Shown here: positions 45,482-53,951 of the stretch, piece by piece
Position numbering within the stretch: the first letter of the stretch is position 1
Layout of the letters: every line of letters starts with the position of its first letter
From: Bacteroidota bacterium
GTDB lineage: Bacteria > Bacteroidota > Ignavibacteria > Ignavibacteriales > Melioribacteraceae
NCBI GenBank assembly: GCA_021801605.1
Contig: JAJYXU010000114.1
Coordinates: forward strand, 1 to 56,723
Length of the DNA stretch: 56,723 nt
Direction of reading: 5' to 3'
Position numbers and translations under genes: made by a program
Notes under the pieces: generated by a model
Database searches by the model: none
What the model was told of the DNA's origin: nothing
What the model saw: the letters and a program-made list of their open reading frames with translations, nothing else

Positions 45482-45501
45482 CCTGCGAAGTTTTTTCGGA
45501 G

Positions 45502-45534
45502 GCGGAGACACTGAAAGGCATCTCCGCTTTTTTT
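45502..45534 (+). terminator. Rho-independent terminator after rpoZ
   Basis: GCGGAGA (45502-45508) pairs with TCTCCGC (45521-45527), loop of 12 nt, followed by a run of T. Confidence 0.8.
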
Positions 45535-45572
45535 ATTTCCTTCCTAATCTTCTATCTCACCATGAAATCATC

Positions 45573-45621
45573 TTTATAAAATCTTTACACAGTTAAACAA
45601 TCATTTTACAGCCGCTTTATA
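45573..45621 (+). promoter_or_regulatory. Candidate KdpE operator region
   Basis: TTTATA-N5-TTTACA at 45573-45589 is identical in layout to the E. coli KdpE site as I recall it (TTTATA-N5-TTTACA). A second arrangement, TTTACA-N5-TTTATA, lies at 45605-45621, about three helical turns away. Both are upstream of the 96-aa gene rather than directly ahead of kdpF. A -10/-35 pair is not obvious. Confidence 0.35.
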
Positions 45622-45689
45622 AATCAAAATTTATCTTTGTCACGAGTTTTAGAGAAGATAAACATGATCTAACATTTGGAAATTATTTT

Positions 45690-45980
45690 GTGAAAGATAG
45701 ATTAATAGTCAGATTGGAAAATTCTTTCGTCAAAGCAAAGTCAAAGTTAATATTGACTGTTTATGCTGTGTGGGTTGTAATTTCAGTAATACTTGCAGTT
45801 TTACATTCCCATAAGTATGCAACTTACTTTGCCGATCTACCCGACAACTTGAAAAATATATCACCATTCGTTCTTTCGCTTGGATATCTAGTTCTATTTA
45901 TTCCAGCAATTGCAGTTATAATTATTTTAATATTCTATTTATTCTTTAATATTCTAAAAAATGTGTGGTCTAAACAATAA
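45690..45980 (+). CDS. Small two-TM membrane protein upstream of kdp
   Basis: A 96-aa protein with no family I recognise. It starts at GTG with a weak GGA upstream. A short basic N-terminus (MKDRLIVRLENSFVKAKSK) precedes helix 1 (about 20-40), then a short hydrophilic loop LHSHKYATYFADLPDNLKN, and helix 2 (about 61-90) with a basic end. It ends about 100 nt before kdpF and on the same strand. If the operator-like sequence at 45573 is real, it belongs to the Kdp regulon and may be an accessory or regulatory subunit. That role is inference. Confidence 0.6.
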   Translation: MKDRLIVRLENSFVKAKSKLILTVYAVWVVISVILAVLHSHKYATYFADLPDNLKNISPFVLSLGYLVLFIPAIAVIIILIFYLFFNILKNVWSKQ

Positions 45981-46080
45981 TCGGACTCACAGCCAAAACT
46001 TAAATTCATCTTATAAGTGCATTGTATGGCATATTTAATTTATAAGACAAGAAAATTCCGATACAAACTCAGAGGAAAAA

Positions 46081-46176
46081 ATGGAAAGTCCTTTAGAAAT
46101 AATAATCTCTCTTATAATTTCATTCGTAATTTTAGTGTATCTCATTTACACGTTAATTAAACCGGAAAAATTTTAA
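46081..46176 (+). CDS. kdpF: KdpF, small subunit of the K+-transporting ATPase
   Basis: A 31-aa single-helix peptide: MESPLEIIISLIISFVILVY followed by LIYTLIKPEKF. The end LI.PEKF matches KdpF (E. coli ends LLRPERF). AGAGGAAAAA provides the ribosome-binding site and kdpA starts 16 nt after the stop. KdpF stabilises the KdpFABC complex in the inner membrane. It is short enough to be missed by automatic gene finders. Confidence 0.88.
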   Translation: MESPLEIIISLIISFVILVYLIYTLIKPEKF

Positions 46177-46192
46177 TTGCTTAGGTCATATT

Positions 46193-47887
46193 ATGATTCC
46201 GTTTAACGAAATAATTCAAGTAGTAATCTTTATAATAGGACTAATTATAGCAGCGCCGTTATTTGGCGGTTACATTTCAAAATTATTATCCGGTGAGAAA
46301 AATATTCTGACCCCGGTCTTCGGAAAAGTCGAATCTTTAATCTATAAATCTGCCGGAATCAATCCATCCGAAGAAATGGATTGGAAGAAATATACATTTT
46401 CAATTCTGATATTCAGTTTCACCGGAATAATCTTGCTGACTGTTATTCAGCTAATTCAATCAATCCTTCCATTGAATCCGCAAAAATTATCGAACGTGGA
46501 GTTCACATTAGCGGTTAATACTGCTATTAGTTTTGTAACGAATACTAATTGGCAGTCATATGCCGGCGAAACATCACTAAGTTATTTTGTACAGATGATC
46601 GGCTTGACAGTACAGAATTTTGTTAGCGCAGCTACCGGAATTGCGGTATTGCTAGCATTGACAAGGGGATTGGTTACCCGGCAGGGAAACAGTTTAGGAA
46701 ATTTTTGGGTTGATTTAGTACGCTCAACTCTTTACTTGCTCGTACCGCTATCGGCAATATTTGCAATTGTGCTGGTAAGTCAAGGTGTAGTTCAATCATT
46801 CTCCTCCTACAAAGAAATAACGACATTGGAAGGATATAAACAGATAATTCCATTAGGTCCGGCAGCATCTCAAATAGCAATAAAACAACTAGGAACAAAT
46901 GGCGGCGGATTCTTCAACACAAACAGTGCCTTTCCTTTCGAGAACCCAACACCGCTAACAAATTTTCTGCAAATGTTCTCAATACTTCTTATTCCTGCTT
47001 CATTAGTTTTTACATTTGGAAAATTGATCGGCTCAAAGAAACAAGCATGGATAATATTTTTTGTGATGATGATTGTTTTGGTTTTGGGTCTGATAGTATC
47101 CACTTACTCGGAATATTCGACCAATAATATTTTTCATACAAGCGGATTAATGGAAGGGAAAGAGACACGAATTGGAATACTAAATAGCGTTTTGTGGTCA
47201 ACTGCAACCACAGCTGCATCCAACGGATCTGTAAACGCGATGCACAGCAGTCTTTCACCGTTAGCCGGTTTAGTCGCAATGTTTAACATACAACTTGGAG
47301 AAATAATTTTCGGCGGAGTGGGATCAGGTTTATACGGGATGCTTCTATTCATACTAATTACAGTTTTTATTTCGGGATTAATGATTGGCCGTACGCCTGA
47401 ATACCTCGGGAAAAAAATAGATGCGTTTGAAATTAAATGGGCAATAGTTGCAATACTGCTACCCAATACAGTTATTCTACTTTTCTCTGCCCTTGCGCTC
47501 AGAACAAATGCCGGTTTATCAAGTTTAGCAAATTCCGGTCCTCATGGTTTTTCTGAAATACTTTATGCATTCTCATCGGCAGCTGGAAATAACGGCAGTG
47601 CATTTGCAGGGTTAAATGCTAATACCGTTTTCTATAATTTAATGATGGGCGTGGGAATGTTGATAGGAAGATTCGGTGTAATTATTCCTTGCATGGCAAT
47701 AGCAGGTAATCTCGTAAAGAAAAATATTACTCCGGCTTCTAAAGGAACATTGCAAACCGATAATTTTCTTTTTGCATTACTATTGTTAGGAGTGATATTT
47801 ATTGTTGGAGCGCTTACATTTTTCCCTGCATTGTCGCTTGGTCCTTTGCTTGAACATTTATTGATGAACAACGGAATTACTTTTTAA
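46193..47887 (+). CDS. kdpA: K+-transporting ATPase subunit A
   Basis: A 564-aa channel-like subunit with about ten membrane helices and four selectivity-filter-like repeats; the motifs [43 protein letters not shown] and [13 protein letters not shown] are visible. Length equals E. coli KdpA (557 aa) closely. It binds and conducts K+ with nanomolar affinity as part of KdpFABC. kdpF lies 16 nt upstream, kdpB 17 nt downstream. Confidence 0.97.
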
Positions 47888-47904: not shown

Positions 47905-50013
47905 ATGGACACCAGAGAAAAAAGAAAATTATTTGATAGAAAAATTATCTCACAGGCAATAGTGGATTCATTTATTAAGATAAATCCAAAATTGCTTCTG
48001 AAAAATCCTGTTATTTTCCTGGTTGCAATAGGAGCAATGCTAACCTCTGCTTTATTTGTTATTAACTGGATTAATGGAAATTTTTCATCATTTAATTTCC
48101 AAATAATTATTTGGCTCTGGTTTACCGTTCTCTTTGCCAATTTTGCAGAAGCAATTGCCGAGGGAAGAGGGAAAGCGCAATCAGAAAACCTTCGCAAACA
48201 AAGGACGCAAACGGTTGCGCGAAAATTGACAAATAATAAAGAAGAAAAAGTCTCTGCAGTTGATCTGCGTATGGGCGATCTTGTGATTTGTGAAACCGGC
48301 GATTTAATTCCCGCCGATGGAGAAGTTGTTGATGGCATTGCCAGTGTTGATGAATCTGCGATTACGGGAGAATCTGCGCCTGTAATTCGAGAAAGCGGAG
48401 GCGATAGAAATGCTGTAACGGGCGGAACTAAAGTTATAAGTGACAAGATTATTATAAAAATTACTGCTAACCCGGGAGATACTTATTTAGATAGAATGAT
48501 TTCTTTAGTAGAAAGCGCTAAACGGAAAAAAACTCCAAACGAAATAGCCCTTTCAATTTTACTCTCCGGGTTGTCAATCATTTTTCTTCTTGTAGTTGTA
48601 ACATTCAGAATATTCTTTGAATACGACCAAGCCGGTAGTCTATCACAAAGCAATAATGTTTCTATTCCAATTCTTGTTTCTCTTTTAGTTTGTCTAATAC
48701 CTACAACTATCGGCGGATTGTTAAGTGCAATAGGTATTAGCGGAATGGATCGTTTGCTCAGTCATAATGTAATTGCTATGAGCGGAAGAGCTGTTGAAGC
48801 TGCGGGAGATATTGATGTTCTTCTTCTTGATAAAACCGGCACTATAACACTCGGTAATAGAATGGCTACGGAATTTATTCCCGCTTCCGGATTCAGTGAA
48901 AGATATTTGGCAGATGCCGCTCAGCTGGCATCACTTGCAGATGAAACACCGGAAGGGAGGTCAATTGTAATTCTTGCTAAAGAAAAATTTGATATACGTG
49001 CCAGAAACATTCATGATCTTAACGCTCACTTTGTTCCGTTTAGTGCTCAATCGCAAATGAGCGGTGTAGATATTCTTTCATTAAACAACTCACCGGAACG
49101 TATTATCAGAAAAGGTTCTATTGATGCGATAAAAAAATATCTTGCCTCAGACAGCAGTGAAAATATCAATTTGATTACGGATTTAAATTTTTCTCAAATG
49201 ATTGGTGTTGATATTGCGCTCGCGGGCGGAACACCTTTATTGGTTACGGAAAACAAAAAAGTTCTCGGTGTTGTTCAATTAAAAGATGTAGTTAAAGGCG
49301 GAATCAATGAACGGTTTGCTCAACTAAGAAAAATGGGAATCAAAACAGTTATGATAACCGGCGATAATCCTTTAACCGCAACAGCAATTGCTGCCGAAGC
49401 CGGAGTTGATAGTTTTATTGCTCAAGCAAAACCGGAAGATAAACTTAGAACAATTAGAGAAGAACAATCTTTAGGCAGAATGGTTGGAATGATAGGAGAC
49501 GGAACAAACGATGCGCCTGCACTTGCTCAAGCCGATGTTGGAATTGCTATGAATAGCGGAACTCAAGCTGCACGCGAAGCGGGAAATATGATTGACCTCG
49601 ATAGTAATCCTACAAAATTGATTGAGGTTGTTGAAATCGGAAAACAATTATTAATGACTCGCGGATCTTTAACGACTTTTAGCATTGCTAATGACGTTGC
49701 AAAATATTTTGCGATAATTCCCGCAATTGCAACTACACTCTTTGCAACTAAAAACGGAACCGGACCGCTTTCTGCTCTTAATATTATGGGTCTCGCTTCA
49801 CCGCAAAGTGCAATTCTAAGCGCGGTGATATTTAATGCAATAATAATTATTCTGTTAATACCACTTGCATTAAAAGGTGTTAAGTATCGTCCGGAAGGAG
49901 CCGCTGAAATTCTGAAACGTAATATTACAATCTATGGCTTAGGCGGTTTAATCGTTCCCTTTGTTGGAATAAAAATTATTGATATTGTTTTAACATCTTT
50001 AAGATTAGTTTAG
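47905..50013 (+). CDS. kdpB: K+-transporting ATPase subunit B
   Basis: A 702-aa P-type ATPase (IA). D309 in DKTGTIT is the phosphorylated aspartate (D307 in E. coli). The TGES motif is in [10 protein letters not shown], and [26 protein letters not shown] hinge motifs are intact. Serine at the E. coli S162 equivalent is part of TGES, so inhibition by phosphorylation is possible. It drives K+ uptake with KdpA and KdpC. kdpC follows after 17 nt. Confidence 0.97.
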
Positions 50014-50030: not shown

Positions 50031-50606
50031 ATGAAAAAGAAAATTTTAACAACTATAAAACTCTTTCTTATTTTGACTTTATTGGTTGGCATAATATATC
50101 CGCTGTTTATTTCGGCAATTTCAATGTTGTTCTTTTCACATCAAGCAGACGGAAGCATGATCAGTTTAGACGGAAAAATTGTTGGTTCTAAATTGATAGG
50201 ACAAAAGTTTACTTCGGGCAAATATTTTTGGTCCCGTCCATCGGCAATTGATTATAATCCTTTTCCTTCCGGCGCAAGCAACTTAGCTCCTACAAGCGCT
50301 AAACTGAAGCAGTTATATGTAAATAGAAAAGAAAACTTTGCTAAAAGTAACTTCATTAAAAATTCGAGTTTAATTCCAAATGAAATGCTATTTGCATCCG
50401 GAAGCGGAGTTGACCCGCATATAACACCTGCTTCAGCATTTCTGCAAGTTGACCGCATATGTAATTCTAGAAATTTCAATACAACACAAAAAGAGGAATT
50501 GATTAAATTAATCACGAGAATAATCGAAAATCCTCAGATCGGCTTTTTCGGTGAAAGTAGAATAAATGTGTTGATGTTAAATATGGAGTTAGATAAAATA
50601 AAATGA
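50031..50606 (+). CDS. kdpC: K+-transporting ATPase subunit C
   Basis: A 191-aa periplasmic-facing subunit with one N-terminal TM helix (about 7-32). Conserved stretches are GSKLIGQKFTSGKYFWSRPSA, LFASGSGVDPHITPASAFLQVDRI and the C-terminal FGESRINVLMLNMELDKI. It assembles between KdpA and KdpB. Its stop overlaps the start of kdpD (ATGA at 50603-50606), so translation of the sensor is coupled to the transporter. Confidence 0.95.
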   Translation: MKKKILTTIKLFLILTLLVGIIYPLFISAISMLFFSHQADGSMISLDGKIVGSKLIGQKFTSGKYFWSRPSAIDYNPFPSGASNLAPTSAKLKQLYVNRKENFAKSNFIKNSSLIPNEMLFASGSGVDPHITPASAFLQVDRICNSRNFNTTQKEELIKLITRIIENPQIGFFGESRINVLMLNMELDKIK

Positions 50607-53251
50607 ACACAGATGAAGAAAAACGTCCGGATCCATTAAAACTATTAGACTCAATTCAAAGAGAAGAAGAGAAAGAAAAAAAGGGGAAGCTTAAGATATT
50701 TTTTGGAATGTGCGCAGGAGTTGGAAAAACCTATTCATTACTTGAAGCCGCACAAAAATCGAAAAAAGATAAAATTGATGTAGTGATCGGTTATGTAGAA
50801 CCTCACAAAAGGAAGGAAACAGAAAAACTCCTGGAGGGGTTGGAGTATCTACCGTTAAAGGAAATTACTTATCGAGATACAATATTTAAAGAGATGGATC
50901 TCGATGCAATTCTATCCCGCAAGCCGCAGTTAGTTCTAGTAGATGAACTTGCGCACTCAAACATTCCCGGCTCTAGACATGTTAAGCGTTTTCAAGATGT
51001 TGTGGAAATACTGAATAATGGCATTGACGTTTACACAACTCTAAACGTTCAGCATCTTGAAAGCCGTGCTGAAACCGTTTTCCAAATAACCGGCGCTCAG
51101 ATTAAAGAAACAGTTCCGGATTCGATATTCGCAAATGCTGATGAGATAGAACTTGTGGATATTACACCGGATGAACTTCTTCAAAGATTAAGTGAAGGCA
51201 AAGTTTACACGCCGGAAAAATCCCAGCAAGCAATAGAAAATTTCTTTCGTAAAGGAAATTTGACTGCGCTTCGTGAAATGGCTCTTCGATTAACCGCCGA
51301 GAGAGTGGATTACCAATTACGAGATTATAAGACCGAAAAAAATATTACAAGCACTTGGAAATCGGGACAACGATTAATGGTTGCAATCAGTCCCAGCCCT
51401 TACTCTGCCAAGTTAATTAGATGGACACGCCGCCTTGCATACACAATGGAAGCATCCTGGATTGCAGTCTATGTAGAAACAGATCAAAAAATTTCTGAAG
51501 AAAATAAAGAAGTCTTAAAAAAGAATTTTGAACTGGCTAAAGAACTGGGCGCTGAAATAATTATAACAAACGATCTGGATATAGTACGTGCCTTGCTTCG
51601 TATAGCTTCTGAGAACAATGTAACACAGATAATAGTCGGTAAATCAAGAGCGTTCCGCAAATCGAAATTGATAGAAAGATTATCAAAAGAGAGCGGTGAG
51701 ATTGATATTTATATTGTTGGCGGGGAAAGAACAGATTCTCGAAAAGTATTAAGCAATCTAATCTCCAAATTTCAATCGGGTAAATATCAGTATCTAGTCT
51801 CTTCATTAATAATCAGTGCTGTATTATTAATTTGTTATTCTTTGCTGGCACAAATCGGCTATCAAACTGTTTCTTTGATTTTACTTTTAGTTGTTTCACT
51901 GATGCCGCTTATAAATCTCGGCAGGGGACCTATGATCCTTGCTGCTTTAATAAGTGCACTTAGCTGGGATTACTATTTTATTCCGCCGCGGTTTACATTT
52001 CATATAGACCGGGTTGAAGATGTGTTAATGTTATTTGTCTTTTTTATTGTAGCAATGGTTTCGGGAGTTCTAACTTCTCGTTTAAGAACGCAGCAGAAAT
52101 TATTGACTATTAGAGAGACCCGTACAAATGCTCTTTACAATCTTCTTAAAGAATTGGCTACTGGAAGAAGTCTTGATGATCTTGTCGAAATCAGTATAAA
52201 AAACATTAAAAAAGTTTTTGATGCAGAAACAGTTATTATCTTTCCGTTAAATGAAAAGAAACTTTCTCCTGCGCCACATTCTGCAAGCAGTTTTATATTA
52301 GATGACACCGAGTGGCACATTGCAAATTGGTGCTTCACCGGTGGACAAAAAGCGGGAAAATTTACAAACACGCTTCCGATATCAGACACACAATTTATTC
52401 CGTTGATCGGTTCACGCAGAAAAATTGGAGTGATAGGATTAAAATTTAATAACAACCAGCCGCTTCATTTTGAGCAGGAAACTCTTCTTGAGGCGTTCGT
52501 TAATCAAATTACAATCAACTATGAAAGAGAACTTCTAAATGAATTGGCAAAAAAATCTTTAGTTGTTTCCGAATCGGAAAAATTATATAAAACATTATTC
52601 AATTCTATTTCTCACGAATTAAAAACTCCTATTACAACAATCATTGGCGGAATCAGTTCAATTGCGGATGATTCGATCTCCGAAAATAAAGAGATGAGAA
52701 AAAATCTTAGCAATGAAATTAATATTGCCGCTGAAAGATTAAACCGTCTTGTTGAGAATTTACTTGATATGACACGTTTAGAATCCGGACAAATGAAATT
52801 AAGACTGGATTGGCATGAAATAAATGATCTAATTGAGAGCGTTCTGAAAAGATTGAATAGTGAATTAAAGGATCACGAAGTTATAACAGAGATTCAGGAA
52901 AACATTCCTATTTTCAAATTCGATTTCGGTTTGCTTGAACAAGCATTGATAAATGTCATTCATAATTCGTTAATTTACACTCCGGAAAAAAGTACTATCC
53001 GGATTAGTGTAAAAGTAGAAAAAAGTAATTGTGTAATTGAAATATCGGATGATGGTCCCGGTTTTGCTGAAGAAACATTAAATAAATTATTCGAAAAATT
53101 TTATAGAATACCCGGAACTAAAACCGGAGGGACGGGGCTTGGGCTGTCAATCGCAAAAGGATTTATTGAAGCACACTCCGGAAGCATTACGGCAAAAAAT
53201 AGAAAAGAAGGCGGTGCCGTTTTTATCATAAATATTCCGATTCAAAAATAA
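50603..53251 (+). CDS. kdpD: Sensor histidine kinase KdpD
   Basis: An 882-aa K+ and osmotic-stress sensor. The N-terminal KdpD domain contains a P-loop GMCAGVGKT (35-43) and a second motif LVDELAHSN; a universal-stress-like domain follows (about 250-370). Four membrane helices lie at about 395-495, then a GAF domain (about 520-650) and HisKA with H671 in SHELKTPIT, and HATPase_c with DDGPGFAEE and GTGLGLSIAKG. Architecture equals E. coli KdpD (894 aa; H673). It overlaps kdpC by 4 nt and precedes kdpE by 10 nt. Confidence 0.96.
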   Translation: MNTDEEKRPDPLKLLDSIQREEEKEKKGKLKIFFGMCAGVGKTYSLLEAAQKSKKDKIDVVIGYVEPHKRKETEKLLEGLEYLPLKEITYRDTIFKEMDLDAILSRKPQLVLVDELAHSNIPGSRHVKRFQDVVEILNNGIDVYTTLNVQHLESRAETVFQITGAQIKETVPDSIFANADEIELVDITPDELLQRLSEGKVYTPEKSQQAIENFFRKGNLTALREMALRLTAERVDYQLRDYKTEKNITSTWKSGQRLMVAISPSPYSAKLIRWTRRLAYTMEASWIAVYVETDQKISEENKEVLKKNFELAKELGAEIIITNDLDIVRALLRIASENNVTQIIVGKSRAFRKSKLIERLSKESGEIDIYIVGGERTDSRKVLSNLISKFQSGKYQYLVSSLIISAVLLICYSLLAQIGYQTVSLILLLVVSLMPLINLGRGPMILAALISALSWDYYFIPPRFTFHIDRVEDVLMLFVFFIVAMVSGVLTSRLRTQQKLLTIRETRTNALYNLLKELATGRSLDDLVEISIKNIKKVFDAETVIIFPLNEKKLSPAPHSASSFILDDTEWHIANWCFTGGQKAGKFTNTLPISDTQFIPLIGSRRKIGVIGLKFNNNQPLHFEQETLLEAFVNQITINYERELLNELAKKSLVVSESEKLYKTLFNSISHELKTPITTIIGGISSIADDSISENKEMRKNLSNEINIAAERLNRLVENLLDMTRLESGQMKLRLDWHEINDLIESVLKRLNSELKDHEVITEIQENIPIFKFDFGLLEQALINVIHNSLIYTPEKSTIRISVKVEKSNCVIEISDDGPGFAEETLNKLFEKFYRIPGTKTGGTGLGLSIAKGFIEAHSGSITAKNRKEGGAVFIINIPIQK

Positions 53252-53261
53252 AATTAATGTT

Positions 53262-53951
53262 ATGAGCGTAAAACCGGTAATACTGATTATTGATGATGAA
53301 TCCCAGATAAGAAAGATTTTGCGGATCACTCTTGAATCCGACGACTATAAAGTTATTGAAGCGGAAAACGGTAAAGACGGAATTATACAAGCAGCAACTG
53401 CACACCCTAATCTTATCATTTTGGATTTAGGATTACCCGACCAGGATGGTTTTTCTGTGCTGCATGAAATTAGAACGTGGAGTTCACTGCCGGTTATGAT
53501 TTTATCTGTCAGAAATTCCGAAGAAGATATTGTAAAAGCTCTCGATTTAGGAGCTGATGATTATCTAACCAAACCTTTTTATACGGCAGAATTGCTGGCG
53601 CGGATAAGAGCTAGTTTACGAAGAGCAAGTCAGGTTCAAGAAAGCAGCATATTTATGAATGGTTCGCTTAAAATTGATCTGGTCTCAAGAACCGTTACAA
53701 AAAAAGATGAAGAAATTAAATTGACTGCCACTGAATATTCATTACTAATACTATTAGTGAAAAATTTAGGAAAAGTATTAACGCATCAGTTGATATTGAA
53801 GGAAGTATGGGGTCAAAGTTATGTTGAGCAATCCCAATCATTACGAGTATTTGTAGGACAGTTGAGAAAAAAAATTGAAGACGATCCTGCTCATCCCAAA
53901 ATGATTATAACTGAATCAGGAATTGGTTATAGGATGATAAATATCAAGTAA
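53262..53951 (+). CDS. kdpE: Response regulator KdpE
   Basis: A 229-aa OmpR/PhoB-type regulator. Receiver domain with IIDDESQ, D55 in LIILDLGLPDQDG and K in LTKPF; winged-helix effector with TATEYSLLILLVKNLGKVLTH and SLRVFVGQLRKKIEDDPAHPK. Phosphorylated by KdpD, it activates kdpFABC. Its likely operator is discussed under the region upstream of the 96-aa gene. No hairpin terminator is apparent after it; 105 nt of AT-rich sequence follow. Confidence 0.95.
   Translation: MSVKPVILIIDDESQIRKILRITLESDDYKVIEAENGKDGIIQAATAHPNLIILDLGLPDQDGFSVLHEIRTWSSLPVMILSVRNSEEDIVKALDLGADDYLTKPFYTAELLARIRASLRRASQVQESSIFMNGSLKIDLVSRTVTKKDEEIKLTATEYSLLILLVKNLGKVLTHQLILKEVWGQSYVEQSQSLRVFVGQLRKKIEDDPAHPKMIITESGIGYRMINIK

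Follow-up and report, generated by a model that had tools for sequence, protein, structure and literature searches.

The DNA analysed here (the window; 56,723 nucleotides of contig JAJYXU010000114.1 from a member of the Melioribacteraceae, genome G000 below) carries gmk and rpoZ followed by a 96-residue open reading frame with a GTG start, which we call X (45690–45980, forward strand, the stop codon ending at 45980). Behind X and on the same strand lie kdpF (46081–46176), kdpA (46193–47887), kdpB (47905–50013), kdpC (50031–50606), a full-length kdpD (50603–53251) and the response regulator gene kdpE (53262–53951). KdpF was identified through PF09604 (33.6 bits, cut-off 21.2) and TIGR02115 (30.6, cut-off 26.85), KdpA through TIGR00680, KdpB through TIGR01497 and KdpC through TIGR00681 and NF001454. 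KdpD possesses the KdpD sensor domain, DUF4118, GAF, HisKA and HATPase domains, and KdpE possesses Response_reg and Trans_reg_C, its best NCBIfam match being KdpE NF007820 at 260 bits, under the cut-off of 325. A terminator-like hairpin behind rpoZ (45498–45534, forward strand; stem GCGGAGA/TCTCCGC, then seven T residues) separates X from gmk-rpoZ. The fold of 45490–45540 has a computed energy of -16.4 kcal/mol (z -3.0; 2 of 200 shuffles were as good), and a terminator consensus scan with loops of 3–8 nt did not list this hairpin.

The preliminary description of this DNA presented X as a GTG-started protein of 96 residues with two transmembrane segments and no recognised family, directly upstream of kdpF, and in this it was right: the frame and two hydrophobic stretches (residues 20–38 and 67–85) were confirmed, and no family reached its cut-off in Pfam or NCBIfam. 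When the seven X proteins of the genus were searched no Pfam or NCBIfam family reached E 0.005, and no Kdp family (KdpF, KdpA, KdpB or KdpC) was among the matches of X. AlphaFold2, given five sequences, models X as a two-helix hairpin (helices 2–38, 40–47 and 59–95; pLDDT 83.7, pTM 0.59). Among the X proteins the first tail carries 3–6 K/R against 1–2 D/E, the last tail 2–6 K/R against 0–1 D/E and the loop 2–3 of each, so both ends are probably cytoplasmic, and the predicted topology is that of an inner-membrane helical hairpin. The best-conserved regions are the loop and the second helix (mean pairwise identity 0.49 and 0.47; 0.30–0.36 elsewhere), the short outer loop being conserved around xD(L/I)P with D49 and P51 invariant. 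Eleven residues are invariant across the seven proteins, whose pairwise identity ranges from 22 to 88%. The dN/dS of X (Nei-Gojobori) is 0.15–0.45 in 15 of 21 pairs, the remaining six being saturated, and 0.18 in the closest pair, G003–G005; for comparison, kdpF gives 0.26–0.33 and kdpA, kdpC, kdpD and kdpE 0.03–0.14. Judged from these comparisons X is a real protein-coding gene, conserved under purifying selection.

The X frame of G001, G004, G005 and G008 has an extra ATG some 8–11 codons upstream; this start reads MNLIF or MDLIF in G001, G005 and G008, and G004 has an upstream ATG of its own. The preliminary description did not mention this leader, whose frame is interrupted in G003 and in the window; within 45664–45690 of the window, the ATG at 45664 is out of frame with X and opens only a two-codon frame. 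It may be that the upstream leader is not needed, or that the assemblies are in error.

DUF4212, the small subunit of sodium/solute symporters, resembles X in having two helices and 80–100 residues. Membership in DUF4212 or TIGR03647 was rejected: the former matched at E 0.0056 and 17.5 bits (cut-off 30) in one of the seven X proteins, the latter scored 13.3 (cut-off 26.05), and profile comparison, with a thin two-sequence profile, returned a probability of 6.8% over 25 columns of the first helix only. An origin from the membrane domain of KdpD (DUF4118) was also discarded (profile comparison, 0.8% probability). Nothing in the PDB matched X by sequence below E 0.38, and by fold the PDB gave no convincing likeness, the one match having E 9.9. 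Neither the plasmid collection nor PHROGs held a match to X. The protein family is undescribed in the literature searched (small kdp ORFs, KdpFABC and KdpE in Bacteroidetes, with subscription journals poorly covered), but there are precedents for a small hydrophobic ORF upstream of kdpF, to which we return below.

A single-sequence search found X in 7 of 96 related genomes, all of the same genus, that is, in 7 of the 12 genus genomes sampled. kdpA is present in 24 of the 96 and 8 of the 12. X occurs in seven of the eight kdpA-bearing genomes of the genus, always inside the kdp locus, and in none of the four that lack kdpA (G002, G006, G009 and G011, two of which are only 66% and 72% complete). 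Lack of conservation beside kdp in relatives, which the preliminary description had named as evidence against its reading, is not what we find: within the genus the gene is conserved there. G010 has kdp without X, in a genome 84% complete with kdp at a contig end. Two of its contigs (L073 and L161) have the sequence of the kdpF promoter at an end, so that the assembly is broken there and the upstream neighbour of kdp is unsure; the contig sharing the promoter sequence carries two other genes. A profile search of 79 family genomes returned the same seven, all genus members, and no X beyond the genus; since the genomes searched include the sequences on which the profile was trained, it is the single-sequence search that supports the seven independently. 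Class-wide, the profile matched 43 of 391 genomes at E of at most 0.05, six of them genus members, and only G163 among the others fell below 1e-3 (8.5e-4). No convincing further X was found in these 391 genomes, though G163 (L049) may hold one. Frames were inspected for 7 of 10 chosen class-level matches: those of L050, L055, L065 and L068 are longer multi-helix proteins and were rejected as X, and L051, L064 and L066 showed no clearly matching frames, the other three of the ten being L049, L052 and L058.

Upstream of X, exactly where the preliminary description had placed it, is the sequence TTTATA-N5-TTTACA (45573–45589, forward strand), and the likeness claimed there to the E. coli KdpE site is borne out, since it equals the half-sites S1 and S2, TTTATA and TTTACA, whose footprint extends from -72 to -50 according to PMC3264566. 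As operator evidence a single such pair was set aside because it is too common: the 3.24-Mb genome holds five exact copies, that of X included, and with up to one mismatch there are 78 matches against 118 for the reversed control. The preliminary description did not include a proximal pair, TTTACA-N5-TTTATA (45605–45621, forward strand), nor a predicted -7 box, TATCTTTG (45632–45639, forward strand), of the TAnnTTTG type, for which PMC9723704 gives a consensus at -12 to -5. The four half-sites, at 45573, 45584, 45605 and 45616, conform to TTTAYA with a spacing of 11-21-11 and score 24 out of 24. When the window was cut into 1078 half-overlapping tiles and both strands were scored, the two tiles holding the operator scored 24 and the next best 19.

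The four-half-site operator lies ahead of X in all seven genomes, the other six scoring 20–24. A spacing of 11-21-11 is best at every X promoter, with G007 tying at a 20-nt gap; the X box of G001 is weak (20/24). X of G007, which is apart from kdpF, still has its own box, and no box scoring at least 20 was found between X and kdpF in G000, G003, G005 or G008. Such boxes also occur at kdp promoters without X (G010, G032, G041, G064 and G087 score 21–23; G065 only 18). In 11 order-level kdp loci (L079–L089) without an OmpR-type KdpE in the stretch seen, no site of at least 20 stands directly ahead of kdpF or kdpA; L081 has a score-20 site ahead of a regulator gene upstream of kdpF, and L082 has another at the stretch edge. 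Scanning the 12 genus genomes with a 49-bp pattern gave 11 places at 0–2 mismatches, all of them in kdp or X loci (one each in G000, G003, G005 and G008, three in G004, two in G007 and two, of the same sequence, in G010); G001, with its weak X box and a 20-nt gap at kdpF, was missed. At up to three mismatches the 12 genomes yielded 18 places, some outside kdp, against 27 for the reversed control, so only close matches are meaningful, and operator specificity is to be read from those at 0–2 mismatches, the control having no breakdown by mismatch.

Sixteen sites scoring at least 20 at X or kdp promoters were aligned without using the dinucleotide TA; G065 (18), the gap between porin and kdpF in G008 (15), the second set ahead of X in G007 and the L081 and L082 sites were left out. 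TA falls exactly +10 behind the fourth half-site in 16 of 16, and in at most four at any other offset from 0 to 29. This fits the TAnnTTTG box and predicts a transcription start near 45644, which would put the proximal pair at about -39 to -23 and the distal pair at about -71 to -55, close to the footprint of the E. coli site (PMC3264566). The preliminary description had also stated that the site is not between X and kdpF; the window indeed has no second operator there, and X therefore seems to be the gene nearest the promoter in an operon X-kdpFABCDE. Its suggestion that X is induced with the pump fared well in so far as the sequences support KdpE-type control and membership in the kdp unit, the single half-site pair on which it leaned being weak alone. 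The predicted co-regulation of X with kdp is, we consider, well supported by the sequences.

The kdp loci with X have four arrangements and occupy at least two chromosomal sites. The order X-kdpFABCDE is found in G000, G003 and G005, and X-porin-kdpFABC-KdpD_N-kinase-KdpE in G001 and G008. G004 has X-porin-second kdpABC-first kdpFABC with further genes after, and G007 has porin-kdpFABC-KdpD_N-X-histidine kinase up to the contig end, the X frame overlapping that of the kinase by 20 nt. At one chromosomal site rpoZ is followed by a UDG-like gene in seven genomes (G002, G003, G004, G005, G006, G007 and G008), and X through kdpE is found between them in G000 and G001. At the other, sufE is followed by a cation-efflux gene in G001, G002 and G006, with X through kdpE in between in G003, G004, G005 and G008 (SufE and Cation_efflux confirmed in G005). 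These empty and filled sites indicate that X lies inside a kdp unit gained or lost at both; the kdp contig of G007 carries the neighbours of neither.

Several features of these loci deserve mention in their own right. G004 (L012, L090) has two pumps at one locus, the KdpA and KdpB of the second being distant (40–45% and 55–57% identical to the others) and its KdpC, of 340 residues, giving two matches to the KdpC model; a YnfA/UPF0060 gene adjoins the first kdpC. G001 (L008 14601–19332) has both a kinase-less KdpD of 677 residues (sensor, Usp, DUF4118) and a full-length KdpD, an apparent hybrid of two kdp types. BBP2-type porin genes occur in kdp loci at L008 8819–9907, L010 10125–11510, L012 7970–9058 and L013 8803–10272 (Pfam-tested) and, by similarity, at L084 8856–9965 and L089 3346–4758, which suggests that they encode K+-limitation porins. 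G032 has a 33-residue, one-helix ORF between kdpB and kdpC (L074 6462–6563).

KdpA and KdpB fall into two types, one in G000, G003 and G005 (91–94% identical within) and one in G001, G008 and G004 (91–95% within), with 73–76% identity between them. The KdpA/B tree, in which G004 enters through KdpB alone (its KdpA is truncated where the stretch ends) and without its second, distant pump, separates the types at 100/100 and joins G007 to the second. The species marker YicC divides the genomes otherwise, setting G000, G001, G002, G006 and G007 against G003, G004, G005, G008 and G009 with support of 100/100, and it rejects G000, G003 and G005 as a group, which is how the pump joins them (p-AU 6e-5). 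KdpE also rejects it (p-AU 4e-5) and groups G008 with G000 and G001; the kinase parts of KdpD disfavour it (p-AU 0.039), pairing G000 with G001 and G003 with G005 and leaving G008 and G004 apart. The X tree disfavours the pump grouping at p-AU 0.028 with the long G007 row and 0.037 without it, a modest test (p about 0.03, six or seven short rows, uncorrected). Without G007 this tree recovers G000–G001 at 95/93 and G003–G005 at 97/97; with G007 the G000–G001 pair is not resolved. X does not reject the larger grouping of KdpD (p-AU 0.22 with G007; present at 68/73 without) and fits the species grouping about as well, KdpD not being singled out. Because the pump grouping conflicts with those of YicC, KdpE, KdpD and X, we conclude from the trees that pump modules are exchanged between species and that X followed the resident locus. 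KdpD and KdpE have been exchanged too, as seen in the separate KdpD of G008 and G004 and in the KdpE of G008.

How, then, might X be related to the pump? One explanation, which we think rather unlikely, is that it is a structural subunit (KdpXFABC) that packs against KdpA or KdpC and holds its outer loop close to where K+ enters. Its place directly upstream of kdpF in G000, G003 and G005, the hairpin fold and the conserved loop with D49 and P51 would suit such a subunit, and small pump subunits exist, KdpF among them (PMC3618439). X is the fastest-diverging product between G000 and G005 (X 46%, KdpF 77%, KdpA 93%, KdpB 91%, KdpC 80%, KdpD 87%, KdpE 74%), although pump exchange accounts for part of that gap, and again between G000 and G001 (X 53%, KdpA 76%, KdpD 88%, KdpE 96%), closely related species that keep X beside pumps only about 75% identical. 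In G003–G005, however, X at 88% is as conserved as KdpF (84%) and KdpC (83%) and close to KdpD and KdpE (both 89%), its dN/dS of 0.18 there standing between those of KdpF (0.33) and KdpC (0.14), and the rate of divergence therefore argues weakly against a subunit. To this must be added the modest leaning of the X tree away from the pump grouping (p-AU 0.028 and 0.037), and G007, where the gene for the KdpD N-terminal part separates X from kdpFABC.

It is also improbable, in our estimation, that X is a K+-limitation gene which shares the KdpE promoter and has no contact with Kdp. It might, for instance, assist the BBP2-type outer-membrane porin, act on lipids or the envelope, or form a small ion leak. 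X is followed immediately by the porin gene in G001, G004 and G008, and in G007 the porin gene adjoins the pump; X also diverges faster than KdpA, KdpB, KdpD and KdpE in the compared pairs, save for near equality with KdpE and KdpD in G003–G005; but no porin gene stands between X and kdpF in G000, G003 or G005, and similar porins occur in kdp loci without X in G082 and G083. That the ORF is an operon leader, acting as RNA or as a translated spacer, would agree with its promoter-proximal position and with the broken frame of the upstream start region in G000 and G003, yet we find this very hard to credit given eleven invariant residues in seven proteins, a dN/dS below 0.5 in every computable pair and no unusual RNA fold in 45644–45720 or 45981–46080 (z 0.1 and -0.2).

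X is very probably a co-regulated accessory protein and, on the evidence assembled, a good candidate for an additional factor that aids or restrains the potassium system. That it acts on KdpD or the pump at all is reasonably probable; that it modulates the Kdp system from the membrane, with KdpD as its leading partner, is, in our view, slightly favoured; and action on KdpD in particular is put forward tentatively. KdpD comes first as partner because X persists through pump exchange, the trees agree in the resolved pairs and X adjoins the kinase in G007, the kinase overlap being confined to that one divergent genome. The preliminary description had offered an accessory subunit or a sensor-coupling protein; the trees of X tend away from the pump and can accommodate KdpD. 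It would follow with good likelihood that X has some part in the Kdp response, whereas the partner is one that we infer, and what the conserved outer loop faces could just as well be KdpC, KdpA or something else. Two-hybrid contact of KdpF with KdpD is reported in PMC3618439, though with no clear consequence for kdp regulation, so that a small Kdp membrane peptide can evidently touch KdpD.

In the scheme we propose, low K+ would activate KdpD/KdpE, and KdpE would bind the four phased half-sites, whose sequence and conservation are observed, the fourth at the -35 position just ahead of the -7 box. Transcription would start near 45644. X would then insert in the inner membrane as a hairpin, presenting its conserved short outer loop and second helix, and would modulate the Kdp machinery from within the membrane. 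It would most likely do so by joining the membrane part of KdpD once induced; a loose association with KdpFABC is less likely.

The mechanism by which KdpD senses K+ is in dispute. The kinase also switches the pump off, through serine phosphorylation (PMC11018627). More speculatively, and with little probability in our judgement, X would be the first of a family of two-helix proteins, induced by KdpE, which adjust any resident Kdp pump via KdpD. They would do this by feedback either on the kinase as sensor or on the serine kinase activity with which it inhibits the pump, and pumps could then be exchanged between species while the operator and X stay. Predicted to be induced with the pump and kept through pump exchange, X is a concrete candidate for an extra layer of Kdp control, and the four-half-site operator with its fixed -7 box can serve as a mark by which to recognise KdpE promoters within this part of the Bacteroidota.

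Like X, KdpF (30 residues) is a small membrane protein encoded at the front of the kdp operon; its induction runs through KdpDE, as is predicted for X, and it touches KdpD in the two-hybrid assay (PMC3618439). Unlike X it has one helix, a separate and recognisable kdpF follows X, and Pfam and NCBIfam revealed no sequence relation between the two. Small hydrophobic ORFs ahead of a kdpF-like gene and within the kdp transcription unit are known as orfZ of Clostridium acetobutylicum (orfZ-orfY-kdpABCXDE) and kdpZ of Alicyclobacillus acidocaldarius (kdpZFABCN); these belong to other phyla, and the likeness is one of description rather than of compared sequence. In the case of MgrB and PhoQ a small induced membrane protein feeds back on a sensor kinase. 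MgrB has one helix and X two, and the effect of X on KdpD is offered here as a proposal, but the principle would be the same: the product of a regulon acting on its membrane sensor kinase.
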